DNA from: a virus
IMG/VR virus record: IMGVR_UViG_3300002835_000063
Coordinates: 1 to 64,000 of that record
DNA: 64,000 bases
Direction: 5' to 3' (one strand)
Part shown: positions 42,855 through 60,742 of the stretch, one piece after another
Position numbering within the stretch: position 1 is the first letter of the stretch
How the letters are laid out: each line of letters opens with the position of its first letter
Made by a program: the position numbers and the translations under genes
The notes under the pieces: model-generated
The model's input: the letters and a program-made list of their open reading frames with translations, nothing else
Databases searched by the model: none
What the model was told of the DNA's origin: nothing

Positions 42855-43217
42855 ATGAGCGCCCCAGCCGGTTTATATAACATAGTGGCCGATCAAGGCT
42901 CAACGCTTTCGCGCATTATTTATTACAAAGATCCAGCTAAGAAGCCAATCAAATTTAATGGATATACAGCCCGTATGCAAGTCAGACCATCTGTAGATAG
43001 CTCTAACGTAATTTTGGAACTTACTACCGAAAACGGCGGTATCGAACTTGGCGCAACAGACGGAAGTATTTCTTTGTACGTAGAAGACACAACCATGATT
43101 ACGATTCCCGAAGGAATCTATGTTTACGATTTAGAGCTCATTGCCCCGTCAGCCAATTTGTTTGTGTACAAAATTCTTCAAGGCAACTTTGCAGTTAGGT
43201 CGGAGGTAACCAGATAA
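42855..43217 (+). CDS. Tail/baseplate module protein, paralogue of 57954
   Basis: 120 aa, all-beta. It shares DQGST, GY(T/S)ARMQVR, G..YVYD(L/I)E and the final LQG.F.VR.EVT with 57954-58331, and resembles N-terminal baseplate/fibre attachment domains of phages. Both copies come directly before a collagen-like fibre gene, so each probably anchors or precedes a fibre. A TAAAAT box lies at 42814-42819. Confidence 0.65.
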   Translation: MSAPAGLYNIVADQGSTLSRIIYYKDPAKKPIKFNGYTARMQVRPSVDSSNVILELTTENGGIELGATDGSISLYVEDTTMITIPEGIYVYDLELIAPSANLFVYKILQGNFAVRSEVTR

Positions 43218-43924
43218 TGGCAGGATACACAGTTAGTTCGGTTACTTCAGGTAAGTACGCAAGACAAATTTCTGTTGCAGCCTCTGGTCCACAAGGAGCT
43301 CAGGGCCCAACAGGTCCGGCAGGCTCGGCTGGAGCAACAGGCCCCACAGGCCCCACGGGAGCTCAAGGATCCGCGGGGGCTGGCCTCAGTGCTACTTACA
43401 AATTTAATAATACTACTTCTGCTTCTAACCCAGGCGGCGGCTATTTAGCATTCAATGCTTCCGATCTTTCCTCTGCTACCAGGCTGTATATTTCAACTAC
43501 CGACTCTTCGTTAGATGCGCAAACAGGACTGTTGTCTGCTATGACTCAGTCTACTAACACTTACAAATCAATTATTACAGTCCAGTCAACCACTAATCAA
43601 AGAAATTTTATTAGGTTTTACGTCAGATCTGTGACCGACGAGTCGGGCTGGAAAAACTTTTTGCTGGTTCACTTAGATGGAACGGTTACGTCTTTTACAT
43701 ACAACCAAGCCCTTTCTTTGTTGGTTGCACCCATTGGTGATGCTGGCACTATAGCCAATTTTGAGGACCTAAATGACGTAGACTTTAACACTCCGTTAGA
43801 TGGAGATGTCGTAGTTTACGACCAAGCAAATTCTATGTGGACCAATGTCGCTTCTAGTCAGCTAAACATATCGGGTCAAAATATTTCAGGTACAATTGAG
43901 GGGGGAAGCGCCAATACCTTTTAG
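43217..43924 (+). CDS. Short collagen-like fibre protein
   Basis: 235 aa. A short Gly-X-Y stretch ([16 protein letters not shown], about 29-56) is followed by a beta domain of about 110 residues and a tail ending IEGGSANTF. The start overlaps the previous stop. It is the shortest of four collagen-like genes here. Likely a trimeric virion fibre. Confidence 0.75.
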   Translation: MAGYTVSSVTSGKYARQISVAASGPQGAQGPTGPAGSAGATGPTGPTGAQGSAGAGLSATYKFNNTTSASNPGGGYLAFNASDLSSATRLYISTTDSSLDAQTGLLSAMTQSTNTYKSIITVQSTTNQRNFIRFYVRSVTDESGWKNFLLVHLDGTVTSFTYNQALSLLVAPIGDAGTIANFEDLNDVDFNTPLDGDVVVYDQANSMWTNVASSQLNISGQNISGTIEGGSANTF

Positions 43925-46345: not shown

Positions 46346-48568
46346 ATGGCAGTCAGAATTCAGTTTAGGCGCGGAACAGCCGCAGAGTGGGTAGCCGCCA
46401 ATCCGACGCTGGCAGTAGGAGAGCTTGGTCACGAGACCGATACCGGCCAGTTTAAGATCGGTAACGGATCAGCCGACTGGGCAAACCTTGTCTACTCTTC
46501 TGTGAGTGAATCATATGTCGATAATGCTATTGCAAATATAATTGACCTTGCTCCAGCAACTCTTGACACTCTAAATGAGCTAGCAGCAGCACTCGGGGAC
46601 GACCCAGACTTTTTTAATACCGTTGCCAACAATCTAACCGCCCACATCTCAGACACAAGCGTTCACGGGATAGAAAATACTTTAGAACTTGCAACTAGTA
46701 CTGATGTAGCAAACATTTTGGGACAACACTCAGGATCAACAGTTAACGTTCATGGAATTGCAAATACTGCTGAACTAGTACTAAATTCACAACTAGCAGA
46801 CTACACCACTACCGCCAATTTAGTCAATACTTATGCTACTATTGCATCTCTAGCAGACTATGCAACCACAGCAAACGCAGTTTTAACCACTCCAAGTATC
46901 AATGACGCTACTATCAATAATGTTTCTGTAGTTGGAACTGTTACTCTGCCAGATACCACTTCTATTGGAGGTGTTAGTGCTACTGAAATATCATATTTAA
47001 ACAATGTAAGTTCTAGTATTCAAAATCAGCTAAACGATAAAGCACCAACTGACAATGCAATTTTCACTGGAAATATTTCTCTGCCAGCGACAACATCTAT
47101 TGGAGATGTAAGCGCCACCGAAATTGGATATCTAGACAACGTAAGTTCAAATATTCAGGTTCAGTTGGATGCTAAGGCCCCAACAGCTAATGCTAGCTTC
47201 ACCGGATCTATTGCCTTGCCAGCTACTACATCTATTGGAGACATTAGCTCTGCTGAAATTGGATATCTAGATAACGTAAGTTCCAATATTCAAGCTCAGT
47301 TGGATGCCAAGCTTTCCACTTCTTCAGCTGCTAGCATTTACGCCCCACTATCTGACCCAACATTTATTAGCACTGTTACCCTGCCAGCTAATACTACGAT
47401 TGGTTTAGTTACCGGTACAGAAATCGGATATTTAGATAACGTAACTTCTAATATTCAGACTCAGCTGGATGCAAAGGCCCCGACAGCCAACCCCACCTTT
47501 ACAGGCACCGTTTCTGGTATTACAGCAACAATGGTTGGACTTGGAAGCGTTGACAATACCGCTGATTTAGACAAGCCAATTTCTAACGCAACTCAGAGTG
47601 CTCTTGATGCCAAGCTAAGCCTAAGCGGCGGAACAATGACTGGCAAGATTACTCTTGACGGAGATCCATCACAGGCACTGCACGCTGCTACTAAGCAGTA
47701 TGTAGACAATCTTGCAGCCGGTCTCCACATCCACGAGGCCGCTCACGCAGCGACTACCGACACACTGGCAAACTTAATAGCTTCAACTGTTACATATGAC
47801 AATGGAACTGATGGAGTTGGAGCTACCCTAAGCTTGGGAGCAAACCTAACTACACTTGATGGCCACACACTAAACAATGGTGACAGAATTTTGGTTAAGA
47901 ACCAAGCAAACGCTGCTCACAACGGTATTTATGTTCGCACTTCGGCCACCCTACTAACCAGAGCTGATGACTTCAACAGCGCCGCCGAGATTGCTGGTGG
48001 AGATCTAGTATTCGTAGAAAATGGAACTCTCTACAACAGCACTGCCTGGGTAGTCGAGAACGAAGTAAGTACTGTAGGAACTGATGACATTCTTTGGGCT
48101 CAGTTCTCTGGAGCTGGAACGGTTACTGCTGGAACCAATATTCAGGTAGACGGTCTTCAAGTTTCGGTAATTTCTAACCCAACTTTTGCAAACGTTGTAA
48201 CGGCAAGCAGCGGTGTTGCTTTCTCAGATGGAACTCAGACCAAACAGGGTGTCCCCTCAATAACGGTAATTAGCCCTAAGAGTGGTTCCTACACCTTAGC
48301 AAGCTTAGACGAGCGCGACACAATCATTGAGATCAGCAATACAAGTGCTACCACACTCACTATTCCACTTGATTCGACCCTAAACTTCCCGGTTGGAACC
48401 ACATTGGACATCATCCAAACCAACACCGGGCAAGTGACCATAGCTGGCGAGGGTGGAGTAACCGTAAACGCCACCCCAGGCCTAAAACTAAGGGCCCGCT
48501 GGTCATCTGCTACACTATTAAAGCGAGCAGCAAACACTTGGCTGGTATACGGCGACCTGAGCGCTTAA
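46346..48568 (+). CDS. Large repetitive tail fibre protein
   Basis: 740 aa. An Mtd-like N-terminal domain (1-50) is followed by about 300 residues of shaft built from repeated SLPATTSIGDVSATEIGYLDNVSS units. A repeated AHNGIYVRTSATLLTR module near 530 and a C-terminal beta domain follow. The shaft repeats (LPATTSIG) are typical of phage triple-stranded beta fibres. Confidence 0.82.
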   Translation: MAVRIQFRRGTAAEWVAANPTLAVGELGHETDTGQFKIGNGSADWANLVYSSVSESYVDNAIANIIDLAPATLDTLNELAAALGDDPDFFNTVANNLTAHISDTSVHGIENTLELATSTDVANILGQHSGSTVNVHGIANTAELVLNSQLADYTTTANLVNTYATIASLADYATTANAVLTTPSINDATINNVSVVGTVTLPDTTSIGGVSATEISYLNNVSSSIQNQLNDKAPTDNAIFTGNISLPATTSIGDVSATEIGYLDNVSSNIQVQLDAKAPTANASFTGSIALPATTSIGDISSAEIGYLDNVSSNIQAQLDAKLSTSSAASIYAPLSDPTFISTVTLPANTTIGLVTGTEIGYLDNVTSNIQTQLDAKAPTANPTFTGTVSGITATMVGLGSVDNTADLDKPISNATQSALDAKLSLSGGTMTGKITLDGDPSQALHAATKQYVDNLAAGLHIHEAAHAATTDTLANLIASTVTYDNGTDGVGATLSLGANLTTLDGHTLNNGDRILVKNQANAAHNGIYVRTSATLLTRADDFNSAAEIAGGDLVFVENGTLYNSTAWVVENEVSTVGTDDILWAQFSGAGTVTAGTNIQVDGLQVSVISNPTFANVVTASSGVAFSDGTQTKQGVPSITVISPKSGSYTLASLDERDTIIEISNTSATTLTIPLDSTLNFPVGTTLDIIQTNTGQVTIAGEGGVTVNATPGLKLRARWSSATLLKRAANTWLVYGDLSA

Positions 48569-48583
48569 TTAGGAGAGAATTAA

Positions 48584-49960
48584 ATGAGCAAGAGAGCTGG
48601 AAGAAAGTCTCAGGCTTCTAATGACTTTTTAGAGCCAAAAGCCCCGATTAACGTATCTGCTACGGACGTTGGAACTGCCCGTGCCTACAATGATGGCGCT
48701 GCTAGCGTTTCTTTCGAGTTACCAGGAGACTCGCCAGCCGCTACTTCTTATGAAGTTAAAGCATATAAAAATGGAACCACTCTCGACACTACCGCAACTG
48801 GAACAACGGGGGCAAGCTCTCCTATCACAGTTGGCGGGCTAGATTCTGCCACTGGATATACTTTTACAGTATCTGCAACTAACGCTGCTGGCACATCGGC
48901 AGATTCAGCCGCATCTGCTTCTGTAACCATTACAACCGTCCCACAGGCTCCGCAAAGCCCATCAGCCACTTCTACAACTGCTAATCAAGACATCATCTCT
49001 TGGTCAAACGGTGCTAATGGTGGGAAAGCCATAACTAGCACATATTTTGTGTCAAGTGACCAGACCACAAATCCAGGCAACGTAACCATGACCACCAACC
49101 CATGGACTGAGCCAGAAAACGGTGGTTCAACGCAGAACTATACTCTGTATCACGTAAACGATAATGGAACCTCAGCAGGCGCTTCTACCGCTAACGTAAC
49201 TACGATTGCACCATTCTTCCCACCATTCTTCCCACCGTTCTTCCCATTCTTCCCGCCTTTCTTCCCGTTCTTCCCACCGTTCTTCCCACCGTTCTTCCCA
49301 CCATTCTTCCCACCATTCTTCCCGTTCTTCCCACCTTTCTTCCCACCGTTCTTCCCGCCATTCTTCCCACCATTCTTCCCACCGTTCTTCCCACCGATGT
49401 TCCCATTCTTCCCACCGTTCTTCCCACCGTTCTTCCCACCGATGTTCCCATTCTTCCCACCGTTCTTCCCACCTAGATTCCTATGTATTGAAGAAAACAC
49501 AATGATCTTGACACCTAGAGGAGAGATCGCGGCTAAGGATCTTCGAGCAGGAGATACGGTATTGTCAATAGCAATTAATGAGATTGGCAATAACTCTGTT
49601 ACCCCAATTGAATTCACTGTTGGTGCAACTTTGACGAGCACATCGCAGCTAGTCGAGACAAAGATTGTTGGAATTCTAGAGACCGTAAAGACCGGAATAA
49701 CTTACTTCAACGGTAGGTCAGAGGCCAGATATTCTAGCCAGCAGCCACTGTTTGTTAAGTCTGATGGAGAATTCCAGGTAAAGATTGTTTCTAACATTAA
49801 GCTTGGAGATGCTCTCCTGCTGATTAATCCAGATGGAACATACACCGAAGAAGAGGTAACCGAAATTACTCTAGTTTCGGAGCCGGCCAATGTATTCCAA
49901 TTCTCCTGCGAGCCATATCACTGGTTTATAGCTGGTGGCTACTTGGCCCACAATAAGTAA
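48584..49960 (+). CDS. FN3 adhesin with Phe-Pro repeat and C-terminal Hint (intein-like) domain
   Basis: 458 aa. Two FN3 domains at about 21-115 and 120-208 lead to a low-complexity FFPP repeat (211-297), then a Hint domain (301-458). The Hint part begins with C301 (CIEENTMILTPRGEIAAKDLRAG) and ends with H456-N457-K458 (YLAHNK), as in inteins and bacterial intein-like domains that cleave at Asn. The usual block-B His is Gln here (SSQQPLFV), so processing may be slow or partial. The domain would release or modify the FFPP stalk. It ends at a terminator. Confidence 0.82.
   Translation: MSKRAGRKSQASNDFLEPKAPINVSATDVGTARAYNDGAASVSFELPGDSPAATSYEVKAYKNGTTLDTTATGTTGASSPITVGGLDSATGYTFTVSATNAAGTSADSAASASVTITTVPQAPQSPSATSTTANQDIISWSNGANGGKAITSTYFVSSDQTTNPGNVTMTTNPWTEPENGGSTQNYTLYHVNDNGTSAGASTANVTTIAPFFPPFFPPFFPFFPPFFPFFPPFFPPFFPPFFPPFFPFFPPFFPPFFPPFFPPFFPPFFPPMFPFFPPFFPPFFPPMFPFFPPFFPPRFLCIEENTMILTPRGEIAAKDLRAGDTVLSIAINEIGNNSVTPIEFTVGATLTSTSQLVETKIVGILETVKTGITYFNGRSEARYSSQQPLFVKSDGEFQVKIVSNIKLGDALLLINPDGTYTEEEVTEITLVSEPANVFQFSCEPYHWFIAGGYLAHNK
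49214..49474 (+). repeat. 12-bp tandem repeat encoding Phe-Phe-Pro-Pro
   Basis: The unit TTCTTCCCACCG recurs with small changes (FFPF, MFPF) for 87 codons, always in frame. The same unit reappears at 63159-63218 in another fibre gene. Confidence 0.9.
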
Positions 49961-49979
49961 AAGCAGTACTACTAAACTA

Positions 49980-50017
49980 CCCCCCTTATGATTAGTAAGG
50001 GGGGGTGTTTATTTTTT
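49980..50017 (+). terminator. Rho-independent terminator after the Hint gene
   Basis: CCCCCCTTA/TAAGGGGGG stem with a 7-nt loop, then TGTTTATTTTTT. It separates the first fibre block from the oxygenase cluster. Confidence 0.88.
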
Positions 50018-50066
50018 AACTTTAATCACTATAATTGAATAGAGTGGTTTAACAGAAAGAATTTAT

Positions 50067-50801
50067 ATGAATACTTGGTTCACAAAAGACAGATCAGAGA
50101 CTGACTCTAATCGAATGCCCCCAAGACCACTGGGCCAAAAAATACAAGTATTAAACCCTGCCTTAGGGATAAATGTATATCGTGGCGCAATAACAAAAGA
50201 AGAGGGCAGGGCTTGCGTAGACATTTTAGAGTCAACCTTAAATGGCCAAACTCAATACAAATGGAGTGATGCTCAAGTTACAAATTCTTCAAAGGCTAAC
50301 CTAGAAGCAAGAAATGCCAAAGATTTTAAATTTAATTCGACTGGCCTAGGGCCAAAAAATGAAGAAAATGAAAAATTATATGAAATGCACGAAAAAATTT
50401 TTAGGGCAGTAAAAGCATGTGTAGATGATTATGGTTATTACTGGGGCGTTGGGATAATGTCATATGAGGCTTTTAACTTTGTTAAGTATGAAGGAGCCGG
50501 GACCCACTTTAAAATTCACGCAGATCATGGCCCAACATATGTAACTACGGTGTCTATTGTCGTGTATCTCAACGATGATTATGAGGGGGGAGAACTTTGG
50601 TTTCCCCGATTTGATTTAACCCTAAAACCACAAGCTGGAGATATAGCAGTTTTTCCGTCAACATACATCTACGAACACGCTTCGCAGGACATGATTAGTG
50701 GGACTAAGTATTCTGTTGTCATTATGAGCGACTATAATGACAGAGATAATGTAAACCAAAGAGTGCCTCAAACCATTCAAAATTATCAACTTAAGTACTA
50801 G
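50067..50801 (+). CDS. 2OG-Fe(II) oxygenase, cluster gene 1
   Basis: 244 aa. Ligands H151xD153 (FKIHADHGPT) and H204 (IYEHASQDM), 2OG-binding K214, and YLNDDYEGGELWF at 167-179. RBS AGAAAGAA; a TATAAT box lies about 35 nt upstream. First gene of a cluster that runs without real gaps to 57889. It is most like cluster gene 2, which also has an H..H/D..G tail. Confidence 0.9.
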   Translation: MNTWFTKDRSETDSNRMPPRPLGQKIQVLNPALGINVYRGAITKEEGRACVDILESTLNGQTQYKWSDAQVTNSSKANLEARNAKDFKFNSTGLGPKNEENEKLYEMHEKIFRAVKACVDDYGYYWGVGIMSYEAFNFVKYEGAGTHFKIHADHGPTYVTTVSIVVYLNDDYEGGELWFPRFDLTLKPQAGDIAVFPSTYIYEHASQDMISGTKYSVVIMSDYNDRDNVNQRVPQTIQNYQLKY

Positions 50802-50812
50802 AAAGAGCCAAA

Positions 50813-51583
50813 GTGTCAGAACAGATCAACAAAACCGAAGAAGAAGTACGCCTAGAGGCAGAACAAAAAAGTAAAGAAGAGCAAAAAAATATACACGAGC
50901 GGCTAGTAAATTGGTACAAAATTGACGAGGTGACTTGGAGTTCAGCAGAAGAAATTGTTCCTGGCAGCGGCATTTGGGTATACCATGATGTTTTGCCCGC
51001 CGAGATGAATATAATTTCTCGGTTAGAAGAAGTTTTAGATAATCCAGAAAATAACTATCAGTACCAAGAAGCAATGGTCGGATATGCAATGAAAATCCCG
51101 GAGTACCGAGACTGCGTAGATTTTAAATACAAAGAGAATGACTTTGACAATGATCAGTCAGAGTGGGGTGACAAGCTTCGACAGTTGGCAAAAGATACAA
51201 AGTATAGACAGCTACAGGTAGTAAAAGATTACACAAGAAGATATAACATCGGCGAACTTCGTTACTGGGAAGCAACCAACTATGTTCGCTATGGAGTTGG
51301 CCAACACTTCCAGGAACATCACGATCACGGGTACTCCTACAACTGTGTAGTTTCTTTGGTTGCGTACCCAAATGACGACTACGAAGGCGGTGAGCTTTAT
51401 TTCAGATTACAAAACATAACTGCTAAAGCCCGCGCTGGCGATGTTTTTATTTTTCCCTCTAATTTTATGTACCCACACAGGGCAATGCCAGTTAAGTCTG
51501 GAGTTAAATACTCTATGGTTACTATGCTTGATTACTCAGAAAAACTACACAATCCAGAATTTTTTAAGGAGCTAGAGAACTAG
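50813..51583 (+). CDS. 2OG-Fe(II) oxygenase, cluster gene 2
   Basis: 256 aa, GTG start. Ligands H169xD171 (FQEHHDHGYS) and H222 (YPHRAMPV), 2OG-binding K232; NDDYEGGELYF at 187-197. An acidic/Lys-rich helix of about 30 residues precedes the fold. Its stop overlaps the GTG of the next gene. Confidence 0.9.
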   Translation: MSEQINKTEEEVRLEAEQKSKEEQKNIHERLVNWYKIDEVTWSSAEEIVPGSGIWVYHDVLPAEMNIISRLEEVLDNPENNYQYQEAMVGYAMKIPEYRDCVDFKYKENDFDNDQSEWGDKLRQLAKDTKYRQLQVVKDYTRRYNIGELRYWEATNYVRYGVGQHFQEHHDHGYSYNCVVSLVAYPNDDYEGGELYFRLQNITAKARAGDVFIFPSNFMYPHRAMPVKSGVKYSMVTMLDYSEKLHNPEFFKELEN

Positions 51584-52329
51584 TGTCAATAGTTTCGATA
51601 CAAAAGCTTTTTAAAGAGGGAGACGTTGCAAATATTGAGCAACTTCCAGCCCGTAGAGACTGGATGGATCAAACTCAGGACAAACATGCCTACATGTGTT
51701 TTCCCTTAAATCTAACAAACAGGCTTGGTTGGTCAATATCTTTTCCGGAGGATATTTCTTTTATTTGGGACGGAGTAACAGATACTTCTCCAGATCATGT
51801 AAAAATTTTAAAAGGAGAAAAATTTGTTCACCCAACTAGGGGAAATGCAACAATTAGTTTTTTAACTGGTTTAAAGTTCACAACAGACCAAAATACTTCT
51901 ATATTGGCAATGCCAGTACCCAACTTGTTTATCAGGGGGGCGCAGTGCTACACAACTCTGATGAGCACCTCTTTTTATATACACATGCTTCCACTGGCCT
52001 GGAGAATTACTGAACCAAACATAGAAATAGAAATACCAGCCGGAACCCCCGTAGCTTCAATTTTGCCAATCTCTTTAACAAATCTAGAGAACGACTACGA
52101 ACTTCAAATTACCGAGGACCTGCCAGACGGATCCTACTGGGAAGAAGTTAGAAAGTATGGCGATGCAACCATAATTAAAAATGGCGCGGGCGACTGGTCA
52201 AAAATGTATAGAGATGCCCTAGACTATAACGGAAATTCTGTTGGCTCTCATGAAACTAAATCAATAAAATTAAAAACTGTAGTATGCCCGGCTACAGGAA
52301 AAAACTATGAAATAGAGGAAACTATTTAA
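51583..52329 (+). CDS. Unrecognised beta-rich protein, pair member A
   Basis: 248 aa, GTG start overlapping the oxygenase stop. Landmarks: AYMCFPLNLTNRLGWSISFPED near 36-57, SFYIHMLPLAWRITEPNIE and IPAGTPVASILPISL. The downstream gene has the same order (AWWADWAVELPEG..., LPAGTPYAQILPF), so they are paralogues. I recall a DUF6065 family with a similar layout but cannot confirm it. No 2OG motif is present. Its place inside the oxygenase cluster suggests a shared task. Confidence 0.6.
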   Translation: MSIVSIQKLFKEGDVANIEQLPARRDWMDQTQDKHAYMCFPLNLTNRLGWSISFPEDISFIWDGVTDTSPDHVKILKGEKFVHPTRGNATISFLTGLKFTTDQNTSILAMPVPNLFIRGAQCYTTLMSTSFYIHMLPLAWRITEPNIEIEIPAGTPVASILPISLTNLENDYELQITEDLPDGSYWEEVRKYGDATIIKNGAGDWSKMYRDALDYNGNSVGSHETKSIKLKTVVCPATGKNYEIEETI

Positions 52330-53069
52330 TGGAAACTAAAAAAATTAAGTTTGTAGTAAATAGACCTTGGTTAAGTAAAGAAAGTAGTTCTCTGCCAAAA
52401 CCAACAATAAAAACTATTCCAGATTGGTACAGAGAGGGGGATCGATATGCAAAACATCCAGTAACTGGAGAGTACTGGAAAGATCCGCAGAATGGCGGAA
52501 AAATTCCAACTTGGAAAGCTTGCCCATCGGTATATGACATCATGGGCTCTGGCTATGTTTACAGGACTCCCTGCGACATTGAATTTAAAGAAAATATTTA
52601 CGGACAAATAGAAGCCAAAGTTTTAGACGAAAAAAATAAAGACTTTTTGCAACTTAGAACGCCCATGCCAGGATTTAAAGCTCCAATGGGATACCACGAT
52701 GTTCATTTTGCGTGGTGGGCTGATTGGGCGGTCGAATTGCCCGAGGGGTATAGTGCACTTTACTCCCAGCCGTTTAATAGATTTGAACTGCCGTTTATTA
52801 CAACTAGTGGAATTATTGATAACGACAAAGTCCATTTGCCGGGGACAATGCCATTTTTTGTTGTAAAAGGATTCCAAGGAGTTCTACCAGCAGGAACTCC
52901 GTATGCTCAGATCTTGCCATTTTTAAGAGAGCACTGGGAATCTGAAATTGTAGATTCCATAGGTTACGAAAAAATGGTACAAAAAAATATGGACAACAGC
53001 CAAAAATACAGGGTCCCAGACGGCGGGGTTTACCAAAAAGATGTCTGGGAACGAAGAAAATACGAATAA
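52329..53069 (+). CDS. Unrecognised beta-rich protein, pair member B
   Basis: 246 aa, ATG within the previous stop (TAATG). Starts IKFVVNRPWLSKESSSLPKP, then IPDWYREGDRY and WKACPSVYDIM, resembling phage proteins that follow oxygenases; VLPAGTPYAQILPFLREHWE near the end matches member A. No catalytic motif is recognised. Confidence 0.6.
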   Translation: METKKIKFVVNRPWLSKESSSLPKPTIKTIPDWYREGDRYAKHPVTGEYWKDPQNGGKIPTWKACPSVYDIMGSGYVYRTPCDIEFKENIYGQIEAKVLDEKNKDFLQLRTPMPGFKAPMGYHDVHFAWWADWAVELPEGYSALYSQPFNRFELPFITTSGIIDNDKVHLPGTMPFFVVKGFQGVLPAGTPYAQILPFLREHWESEIVDSIGYEKMVQKNMDNSQKYRVPDGGVYQKDVWERRKYE

Positions 53070-53083
53070 GATAAACTAGACCC

Positions 53084-53767
53084 ATGAGAAACGACTACAC
53101 AAATAACAACATTACTCCATATATGTCAATAACCCCTTCAGGATTTTTTGGCGATTCTGCAGAAAATATTGTTGCTATTGACGACTTTATGACCGAAGAA
53201 GAATTAACCTATCTAAACAATTTTGCTAGGAAAAATACCATGTGGGACGCAACCGAGACTCACTATAACGAAGATGGTACAGTGATTTATGACTCTTCTT
53301 ACTGGGATCATCGAGTTGCAACGGCTCCCATATTAAAAGAAGCTGATATAAAAGTAGTTGAACTAATATCTGATATGCAAGATAGATTAAAGAAAAAAGT
53401 TGATACTTTTTTCGCAGTGGATGCTCATCCCACAAGCCCGGCGCTAGTTAGGTGGCTACCCGGACAAAGACAGCAACCGCACGCAGATAAAGAACTACAT
53501 GAGGGCGAGGGCAGGGGGAAGCCAAATGACTTCCCATACTATGACATAGCTGGCCTTTTTTATATAAACGATGACTATGAGGGAGGAGAGCTATATTTCC
53601 CTAACCAAGGTATTCAATTTAAACCAAAAGCCGGATCAGCTTACTTTTTTCCAGGAGACATGAATTATATCCACGGAGTCACAGAAATCAAGTCTGGAAT
53701 TAGATATGTTTGCCCATTTTTCTGGACAATAAAAGAGCACACTGGCAACCACAAACCAAATTTATAG
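53084..53767 (+). CDS. 2OG-Fe(II) oxygenase, cluster gene 3
   Basis: 227 aa. Ligands H133xD135 (QQPHADKELHE) and H197 (NYIHGVTEI), R207 for 2OG; NDDYEGGELYFPNQ at 162-175. The charged loop after HxD (HEGEGRGKPNDF) resembles that of prolyl-4-hydroxylases. It starts 14 nt after pair member B. Confidence 0.9.
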   Translation: MRNDYTNNNITPYMSITPSGFFGDSAENIVAIDDFMTEEELTYLNNFARKNTMWDATETHYNEDGTVIYDSSYWDHRVATAPILKEADIKVVELISDMQDRLKKKVDTFFAVDAHPTSPALVRWLPGQRQQPHADKELHEGEGRGKPNDFPYYDIAGLFYINDDYEGGELYFPNQGIQFKPKAGSAYFFPGDMNYIHGVTEIKSGIRYVCPFFWTIKEHTGNHKPNL

Positions 53768-57953: not shown

Positions 57954-58331
57954 ATGAGTCATTTGCGTGGCAATATCCATGATCTAATCACAGATCAGGG
58001 ATCTACTGTACACCAGGTATTTACTATCAAAAACTCGGCTCGTCGGATAATCCCCCTAACCGGGTATTCGGCTCGTATGCAAGTCAGACGTTGGGACGTG
58101 GAAACCAGGGATCCCGTCCTAACAACTATCGCTGAATATACAACTGCAAACGGATATCTAACCGTCAACGGTGCCGCGGGAACCGTGACTCTTCTTATTC
58201 CGCCCGCCGATATGGCAGCATACGAGCCAGGTTCTTATGTTTACGACATCGAGGTCGAGACAGCAAATGCTGGAGATACCACTCGGATCATCCAGGGAAA
58301 ATTTATTGTGAGAGCTGAGGTAACCAAGTAG
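57954..58331 (+). CDS. Tail/baseplate module protein, paralogue of 42855
   Basis: 125 aa. Same beta fold and landmarks as 42855-43217 ([31 protein letters not shown]). Its TAG stop overlaps the GTG of the large collagen-like gene, as with its paralogue, so the pair module-plus-collagen fibre occurs twice. Confidence 0.65.
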
Positions 58332-60742
58332 TGGTACTCTCTGACAATTTTGCATATGTAGACGTTAAAGGTCCTGGACCTCAAGGACCTGCAGGACCAA
58401 CAGGACCTGCAGGACCAGCAGGTGGACCAACTGGACCCACAGGTGTCACGGGACCGACAGGTGCAACGGGACCATCTGTTACAGGTCCAACAGGTCCTAC
58501 TGGACCTACTGGAAACTTAGGTCCTACGGGCCCAACAGGTCCTCAGGGTATTGCAGGTTTGTCAGTCACCGGTGCAACTGGTGCAACTGGAGCAACTGGT
58601 GCAGCCGGTGCTACAGGACCAACTGGAGCACAGGGTATTGCAGGTTTATCAATTACTGGACCAACTGGTGCTGCAGGCGTTGCAGGTCCAACAGGACCAA
58701 CCGGTGCAACTGGTGCAGCAGGTTCTGATGGACTAAGCATTACTGGACCAACTGGACCAACTGGTGCTGCAGGCGTTGCAGGTCCAACAGGACCTACTGG
58801 GTCGCAAGGTATTGCTGGTTTATCAATTACTGGACCTACCGGTGCGCAAGGAAACGTGGGCCCAACTGGTGCAACAGGACCTACTGGGTCGCAAGGTATT
58901 GCTGGTTTATCAATTACTGGACCTACCGGTGCTCTTGGTCCCACTGGTCCCACTGGCCCTACGGGCCCAACTGGCGCAGACAGCATGGTTACAGGTCCGA
59001 CTGGTCCTACAGGACCCACAGGTCCTACCGGAGCAACTGGAGCAACTGGTGCAGACAGCATGGTTACAGGTCCGACTGGTCCTACAGGACCCACAGGTCC
59101 TACCGGAGCAACTGGAGCAACTGGTGCAGACAGCATGGTTACAGGTCCGACTGGTCCAACCGGTGCAACTGGACCTCAAGGAATATCACTAGAGCTAATT
59201 GGATCAGTAGAGAATATAATTGATCTACCGCCCAGTGCAAATATTAACGAAGCATATATTGTCCAAGCCGATGGAAATCTTTATGTGTGGGACGGCGCTC
59301 AATGGGTAGATGTTGGCCAAATTGTTGGACCCATTGGACCGACTGGCCCAACTGGCCCAACGGGAGCAACTGGACCTCAGGGCAATCAGGGCATCCAAGG
59401 TGTTCAAGGCGACACCGGACCCATTGGACCGACAGGCGCAACTGGCCCAGAAGGAAATTATTATGTTGGAGATAATCCTCCACTAACTCCTACAGAGGGC
59501 GATGGTTGGTTCAACACTTCTACAACAAAATTCTTTATTTACTACGACAATTTTTGGATTGAAGTTGCCACCACCGAGCGAGGCCCAACTGGAGCGACTG
59601 GAGATACAGGGCCAGCTGGACCAACAGGTTCCACCGGAGCGACTGGAGATACGGGACCTCAAGGTATTCAGGGTGTAACTGGACCTACCGGAGCGACTGG
59701 AGATACGGGACCTCAAGGTATTCAGGGTGTAACTGGACCTACCGGAGCGACTGGAGATACGGGAGCTACGGGCCCTACCGGAGCGACTGGAGATACGGGA
59801 GCTACGGGCCCTACCGGAGCTGATGCACTGTGGAATTTCACTGGACCATATCAAATAGGGTCTTCTTATGCAGTGGGCGATGTTGCTACCTATGGTGGAC
59901 AGACTTGGTATCGCATAGACGCAAATGGTGGAAACACCGGAGACACCCCATCAGAGGGAACATTCTGGACATTGATAGCGCAAGCAGGAGCTATCGGCGA
60001 CACAGGCCCTACTGGAGCGACTGGAGACACTGGACCTCAAGGTATTCAGGGTGTAACTGGACCTACCGGAGCGACTGGAGACACTGGACCCCAAGGGCCA
60101 ACTGGACCAACGGGTGACACAGGCCCGACGGGCCCGACGGGATTGGGTATTCCACTGGGTGGCGACACCGGTCAAATTTTGGCAAAAGACTCTCCAGCCG
60201 ATGGCGACTATGTTTGGGTTGACAACTATGCTGATTGGACTGCTGTTGTTAAGCACGAAGTTAGAGCAGAGCAAGTATTAACAAAAGGTCAAGCTGTCTA
60301 TGTTAGCTCTTCTGATGGCACCAACATGCGAGTCTCTAAATCGTCTAATGCTACAGAATCAGCATCAAGCAAAACCCTGGGAATTATTGCTCAGAATTTG
60401 GCAGTAAACGGTCAAGGCTTCGTAATAACAGAGGGCCTTCTAGCTGGTCTAAACACATCGACCGCTACAACTGGAGATCCAATTTGGCTTGGAACTGATG
60501 GAAACTTAATTTTTGGCTTAGCAAACAAGCCATCAGCTCCAGCTCATTTAGTTTATTTAGGTGTCGTAACTAGAGTAAATCTTAACAATGGTGAGATATT
60601 TGTTAAGGTTCAAAATGGATTTGAACTGCAAGAACTTCACAATGTAAAAATTAACGGCATCCAAGGCGGCGATATTTTGTCTTACAATGCAATTAGCCAG
60701 CTTTGGGAAAATATTCATGTTGTTGACGGAGGTACGCCATAA
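58331..60742 (+). CDS. Large collagen-like tail fibre with CBM-like module
   Basis: 803 aa, GTG start. Two blocks of Gly-X-Y triplets, mostly Gly-Pro-Thr and Gly-Ala-Thr, fill about residues 14-285 and 333-500. They are interrupted by a beta-hairpin module ([20 protein letters not shown]) and a [20 protein letters not shown] module. At about 500-550, [20 protein letters not shown] with a Trp end resembles a family 5/12 carbohydrate-binding module. The last 200 residues form a globular C-terminal tip. Bacterial collagens of this type are trimeric and often glycosylated on Thr. Confidence 0.85.
58976..59200 (+). repeat. 75-bp tandem repeat in collagen-like gene
   Basis: Near-identical units begin at 58976, 59051 and 59126 (each starts GCAGACAGCATGGTTACAGG or a close variant). 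Further tandem units of 54 bp start at 59641 and 59695. The high identity suggests recent copy-number change. Confidence 0.85.

Follow-up and report, generated by a model that had tools for sequence, protein, structure and literature searches.

A Hint domain as an exchangeable C-terminal tip of FN3-FFPP fibre-like proteins in an uncultured phage group

Reports of bacterial intein-like (BIL) domains in variable proteins go back to 2003, with no clear biological role assigned to them; type A reportedly dates from Amitai 2003. Hedgehog uses the N-terminal step alone. Phage fibres commonly end in a self-cleaving S74 domain. According to the review PMC7765530, BIL domains occupy hypervariable regions of proteins that are not themselves conserved, and known type A domains have a C-terminal His-Asn without a +1 nucleophile and carry out chiefly cleavage (PMC4031507). 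Natural loss of the block-B His is described for the Tko CDC21-1 intein, which uses a compensating Lys (PMC4031507). The BIL/Hint kind of domain is known and so are, in annotation, C-terminal Hint domains on virion proteins. The Hint protein of phage NCTB is annotated as 'putative phage tail protein, contains intein domain', and uncultured Caudovirales proteins in BFVD are named 'Fibronectin type III' or 'Hint domain containing protein'. Our literature searches found neither 'Hint domain', bacteriophage and fibronectin together nor a function for the C-terminal Hints of virion proteins, and yielded no usable virion proteome of a phage with a C-terminal Hint; the texts consulted on Hint domain, phage and tail fiber concerned inteins in terminase and other enzymes or reported absence. 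What appears to be undescribed is a tip cassette that is traded among FN3-FFPP fibres, is probably self-processing and has three active-site versions.

The stretch of DNA analysed here (64,000 nt, hereafter the window) is part of the 108,880-base virus record IMGVR_UViG_3300002835_000063. The ORF under study was open throughout, and its features and neighbours are collected in Table 1. Both a Pfam fn3 match and the (FFPP)n array were present, in keeping with the FN3-FFPP part named in the original prediction; for the second beta-sandwich region, a Pfam match of its own was not found. Seven residues of the N-terminal motif (K3, G6, S9, N13, D14, L16 and P18) were invariant among 15 relatives, and this motif is the probable virion attachment end.

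Table 1 Positions of the fibre-like gene, its parts and its neighbours in the window
Feature	Position	Strand	Basis or remark
Upstream tail-fibre-like gene, Mtd_N domain	46346..48568	+	C-terminal-domain homologue joined to FFPP-Hint in L109
RBS GGAG	48570-48579		Upstream of ORF 48584-49960; read from sequence
Fibre-like protein gene, FN3 domains + (FFPP)n stalk + C-terminal Hint tip	48584..49960	+	458 aa
Conserved N-terminal motif MSKRAGRKSQASNDFLEP	48584..48637	+	Alignment of relatives
Fibronectin type III domain, residues 34-111	48683..48916	+	Pfam fn3 E 1.7e-7; pLDDT about 87-97
Second beta-sandwich region, FN3-like, about residues 122-195	48947..49168	+	AlphaFold secondary structure, mostly high pLDDT
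(FFPP)n stalk, 12-bp tandem repeat, 23 copies	49209..49473	+	TRF
C-terminal Hint (bacterial intein-like) domain, residues 301-458	49484..49957	+	Profile and fold evidence
Cys301, N-terminal nucleophile; predicted scissile bond L300-C301	49484..49486	+	Alignment of 35 non-redundant tips
Block B S384-S385-Q386-Q387 (inteins: TxxH), B:10 His replaced by Gln387	49733..49744	+	Alignment of tips
Block G H456-N457-K458, then stop; +1 Lys not a splicing nucleophile	49949..49957	+	
Terminator-like hairpin (49980-50004) and T-rich tail	49980..50013	+	Weak; shuffled background about equally dense
2OG-Fe(II) oxygenase, prolyl 4-hydroxylase-like, starts conserved downstream cluster	50067..50801	+	
Second 2OG-Fe(II) oxygenase	50813..51583	+	

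Single-sequence evidence for the Hint domain was weak, because the Pfam scores of the region (PT-HINT 22.5, Intein_splicing 21.4 and Hint_2 20.0 bits) all lay under the cut-offs. A test profile made from six Hint tips, each at most about 44% identical to the window tip, scored 145 bits against it (E 1.8e-43; best score among 2000 shuffles, 11 bits), and the family profile matched the solved BIL domain 2lwy (E 6e-13). The AlphaFold model of the domain had a pLDDT of 93, and its best PDB matches in Foldseek were BIL2, 2lwy, inteins and hedgehog (E 2e-7 to 4e-6). Intein blocks A, B, F and G were recognisable within the fold, with the F:13 His retained (H446, 'YHWF') and the B:7 Thr replaced by Ser. 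On the strength of profiles and the predicted structure, the assignment of the C-terminal domain to a genuine Hint fold is secure.

Reading, profile and fold thus agreed with the original prediction of a 158-residue Hint domain that is opened by C301 and closed by H456-N457-K458, with a single residue past the Asn, while the proposed likeness to bacterial intein-like and hedgehog-type domains was borne out by Foldseek and the family profile. It was also correct that Gln (Q387 at B:10) replaces the block-B His, and that the domain is not a splicing intein between two exteins, Asn457 being trailed by Lys458 alone. The same feature led us to reject an intein with two exteins and Cys, Ser or Thr at +1. 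A class 3 intein acting through a block F Cys was likewise rejected: C442 is off F:4, where a hand alignment to DnaB-type inteins places Q439, and Cys1 is present.

Type A BIL domains, which gave the top fold and profile matches, are the closest known class. The window tip is like them (2lwy; Tetrahymena BUBL1 BIL2, 6tmm/6y75) in its Hint fold, Cys1, His-Asn and lack of a nucleophilic +1 residue, and it likewise lies in the variable part, here the tip cassette, of a non-conserved protein. Unlike them, it forms the C-terminal end of a phage fibre as a swappable cassette, most of its relatives have 1-3 residues past the Asn, and the TxxH of block B reads S384-S-Q-Q387, His being found at B:10 in 15 of 35 relatives. 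Sister tips of a second subfamily (subfamily B) share with type B BIL domains and the hedgehog Hog domain a retained Cys1 and a lost intein C-terminal motif; the window tip differs from these in keeping His-Asn and in having neither the B:10 His nor a sterol-recognition region. An adduct-recognition region after the Hint, as in Hog, is absent, the protein ending at K458. By these motifs, the likeness of the window tip is to type A BIL domains and that of the second subfamily to type B.

Hint domains likewise end virion or tail-fibre proteins in phage NCTB and in Alexandravirus-type jumbo phages (Erwinia, Dickeya, Yersinia), and those read had Cys1 and a short tail after His-Asn. They differ from the window tip in sequence (23-28% identity), in their stalk, collagen-like in those read rather than FN3-FFPP, and in keeping the B:10 His. 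A single tail cluster of NCTB (L006:6960-14219) contains three Hint domain genes, including a 153-aa Hint-like ORF that stands free and has no Cys1. The earlier description of a self-processing domain on a fibre as unusual held in part: C-terminal Hints also occur on NCTB- and Alexandravirus-type virion proteins, and S74 is common. Peptidase_S74 domains (endosialidase-type autocleaving chaperones) resemble the window tip as C-terminal self-processing fibre cassettes, one of them found after FFPP in L063, but their fold and chemistry are unrelated to Hint, and at E up to 1 the window protein had no match to the S74 profile. The Tko CDC21-1 intein has also lost the block-B His, but it is a true intein with exteins. 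Polymorphic toxins with PT-HINT likewise combine a constant N-terminus with recombining C-terminal cassettes and Hint domains, whereas in the window protein the Hint is the last domain, followed by a single residue and no toxin.

An IMG/VR search with residues 1-210 alone, leaving out the Hint, gave 444 loci, of which the best 80 were retrieved; a second, broader N-terminal alignment gave 462 IMG/VR loci, again with the best 80 retrieved. No cultured phage with the N-terminus of the window protein was found at E 1e-3 among 50,697 records, and the best 77 loci from bacterial genomes resembled generic FN3 proteins in the alignment overview. The phage that carries the fibre protein belongs to an uncultured group. 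The locus of the N-terminal orthologues was fixed, with a tail-fibre gene upstream and a 2OG-Fe(II)/DUF6065 cluster downstream at most loci examined, whichever tip was present. In L109, a homologue of the C-terminal domain of the upstream fibre, FFPP and Hint form a single chain. The adjoining tail-fibre genes and this fusion chain fit the fibre context originally proposed, and from gene neighbours and the one fusion we infer that the protein is located in the virion. RVT_1 was not found in the 108,880-base record, which is possibly incomplete, and tip variation driven by a DGR was rejected, the record being without a reverse transcriptase.

After removal of duplicates, 101 complete proteins with the shared N-terminus were classed by their C-terminus. 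Five kinds were distinguished: Hint with HN (22), Cys1 Hint without HN (10), Ser1 Hint (8, all with terminal Asp), Cys-rich (25) and short (36); the split does not reflect how often each kind occurs in nature, since hits were ranked by their similarity to chosen seeds and many contigs are fragmentary. One protein classed as short (L108) has a tail of ~165 residues, which may be a still more divergent Hint. On the N-terminal tree, which was made quickly and has many unsupported branches, the five kinds needed 30-31 changes, compared with a minimum of 4 and about 55 for shuffled labels; tips are therefore partly inherited and often exchanged. For the Hint-with-HN class, the starred branches of the tree alone force at least 8 changes.

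The nearest N-terminal relative of the window protein (L214, 77% identical) has a short acidic tail in place of the Hint, and DNA homology between the two runs to 49440, inside the FFPP array, and is back from 50225. L003 shares 49327-53730 of the window, comprising array, Hint and downstream genes, with an N-terminal half that is merely 41% identical. L182 and L152 share 91.7% identity as far as the array's end, and their alignment begins again 24 nt downstream of the L182 stop codon. In most other pairs compared, homology ended within, or slightly past, the FFPP array. Since homology breaks in or near the array and then returns beyond it, tips are exchanged as cassettes, of which the gap in synonymous divergence between L086 and L264 (0.06 in FN3 versus 0.41 in the tip) is a further sign. 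By comparison of alleles, these breakpoints showed that C-terminal cassettes are exchanged by recombination around the FFPP array, and this exchange, absent from the original prediction, is the best-supported part of the whole picture.

The slot was also occupied by other kinds of tip. Short Cys-rich tips, such as CSGCIRSYCWQACPSCCGSCGC, fill it in L018, L070, L095, L159, L170, L199 and L210, and look like small disulfide-rich binding modules. The short tails that follow the stalk in L138, L142, L190, L214, L167 and L118 have the common patterns SIDxRE(L) or SSxRFKHSI, and might be S74-like end remnants. Two FN3 relatives (L207 and L209) carry FGVFGF-type repeats where the FFPP array would be. 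Some phages have two Hint tips of subfamily B (L163:785-3034, L117:7945-10629), borne by the FN3 protein and by a larger one whose N-terminus differs.

Active-site residues were surveyed in 35 non-redundant tips (<80% identity to one another). The N-terminal nucleophile position held Cys in 29, Ser in five and Lys in one, the exception being the free-standing NCTB ORF. B:7 was Ser or Thr in 34/35 and B:10 was Gln in 16, His in 15 and Glu in three, while the end residue (n = 34) was Asn in 20 and Asp in five. Three sets recurred, namely Cys1 with His-Asn (the window type), Cys1 with B:10 Gln or Glu without His-Asn, and Ser1 with B:10 His and terminal Asp; Cys1 tips without an HN end numbered 11 non-redundant (one truncated at a contig end) and Ser1 tips with terminal Asp five. 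By its distribution, Gln at B:10 is a family (clade) trait rather than the mark of a special reaction in the window protein, and the suggestion that it redirects the reaction found no support so far, given that 16 of the 35 tips share it.

Tip dN/dS was 0.04-0.45 in the pairs compared, indicating purifying selection on the tip, and in several pairs it was below that of the FN3 part (0.04 vs 0.14, 0.08 vs 0.24). Taken together, the codon and alignment data showed that constraint acts on the tip and on its nucleophile. Retention of Cys/Ser1 in 34/35 tips together with repeated loss of the terminal Asn accords with N-terminal chemistry, and the best explanation of the conserved tip function is, by prediction, an N-terminal acyl shift. 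The residue preceding Cys1 was variable, and in L205 and L109 it was Pro, which usually hinders the first Hint step. Of the sequence features, this Pro speaks most strongly against activity in some members.

We propose to read the window protein as an allele of a phage fibre built in modules, in which the conserved N-terminus would attach to the virion and the FN3 domains and the (FFPP)n array would form the shaft. The C-terminal end is a slot whose cassette is exchanged by recombination around the array, and the window cassette is a Hint domain of the bacterial intein-like type. Most likely, Cys301 would attack the L300-C301 bond and so produce a thioester at the stalk end, which would then be hydrolysed or captured by another nucleophile, with the tip released or exchanged after assembly. 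Cyclisation of Asn457 would remove at most Lys458, and this step would be optional because sister subfamilies have lost the Asn yet keep Cys/Ser1. The pattern suggests a fibre that cuts or links itself at the stalk-tip junction, and we give self-processing there, with predicted cleavage and a released or replaced tip, slightly better than an even chance. Counting against it, the most conserved intein residue, the block-B His, is Gln in the window, and the known natural active intein without this His depends on a compensating Lys (PMC4031507). Tip exchange is compatible with a plain receptor-binding role as well.

The Hint fold could be a structural or receptor-binding tip only, swapped like other receptor-binding tips, with self-processing lost or irrelevant, a reading that we regard as unlikely. 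Sister tips in this slot that lack the terminal Asn have stayed open; among them, the Cys1 tips without HN for which dN/dS was computed are constrained. The slot also accommodates unrelated small Cys-rich and short tips, and the block-B His is gone in about half of the tips. Such a role sits less well with Cys or Ser at the nucleophile position in all three subfamilies (34/35), and the Ser1 group retains the block-B His and terminal Asp, a catalysis-compatible set. A tip that is slower than FN3 in several pairs is also unlike a diversifying receptor binder.

Somewhat less credible is a removable intramolecular chaperone or cap, which would release itself after folding or trimerisation of the fibre in the manner of Peptidase_S74, and which overlaps with the self-processing that we prefer. 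A genuine Peptidase_S74 does occupy the post-FFPP slot of L063 (E 3.7e-11), but it is the single S74 example and belongs to a protein with a different N-terminus. As 36/101 relatives end in the FFPP stalk or a short tail, a processed product would resemble a natural allele; these tipless relatives, however, evidently fold without a Hint, and there was no sign of Hint folding coupled to trimerisation.

Transfer of the stalk by the Hint to an acceptor (another virion protein, an amine or thiol on the host surface, or a small molecule), as in hedgehog, again overlaps with self-processing and seems improbable to us. The conserved Cys/Ser1 with a dispensable Asn is the hedgehog/BIL-B pattern, and the thioester would lie at the exposed end of the fibre, but loci with a Hint showed no partner gene of their own, nor any acceptor or adduct-recognition domain, and known BIL domains give mostly cleavage products (PMC4031507). 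More doubtful again is a thioester that covalently docks the phage fibre to the host surface or another virion protein, as an intein-type ligation on a traded cassette. Cross-linking to another virion protein or to the host, as originally suggested, is not supported so far. A partner gene specific to loci with a Hint was rejected, as the 2OG/DUF6065 cluster accompanies every tip type. A decayed intein or sequence artefact, which the sub-threshold Pfam scores might recall, has a negligible probability, being refuted by the family evidence of profile and fold, dozens of relatives and purifying selection.

A BIL-type domain is here a traded, constrained tip of phage fibres. A single slot offers three natural active-site versions (Cys/Asn, Cys/none and Ser/Asp), with tipless alleles as natural controls, so that the purpose of BIL domains becomes directly testable. 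If cleavage is true, the tips would represent a second self-processing chemistry for phage fibre ends, unrelated to S74, and a compact natural collection of Hints without the block-B His.

The best solved relatives of the first downstream oxygenase were prolyl 4-hydroxylases, and the prolines of the stalk may be hydroxylated by the downstream oxygenases. 2OG genes lay downstream at 78/78 FN3-FFPP loci with enough flank, compared with 5/11 FFPP-less loci (Fisher 8e-7). On the N-terminal tree, this association came down to 2-5 independent pairs only, and the link between FFPP and prolyl hydroxylase is therefore just a lead and not established. Collagen-like proteins were also seen in the same phage: 43217-43924 gave a Pfam match below the cut-off, and collagen triple-helix repeats (Pfam E 6e-50) occur in the 803-aa product of 58331-60742.
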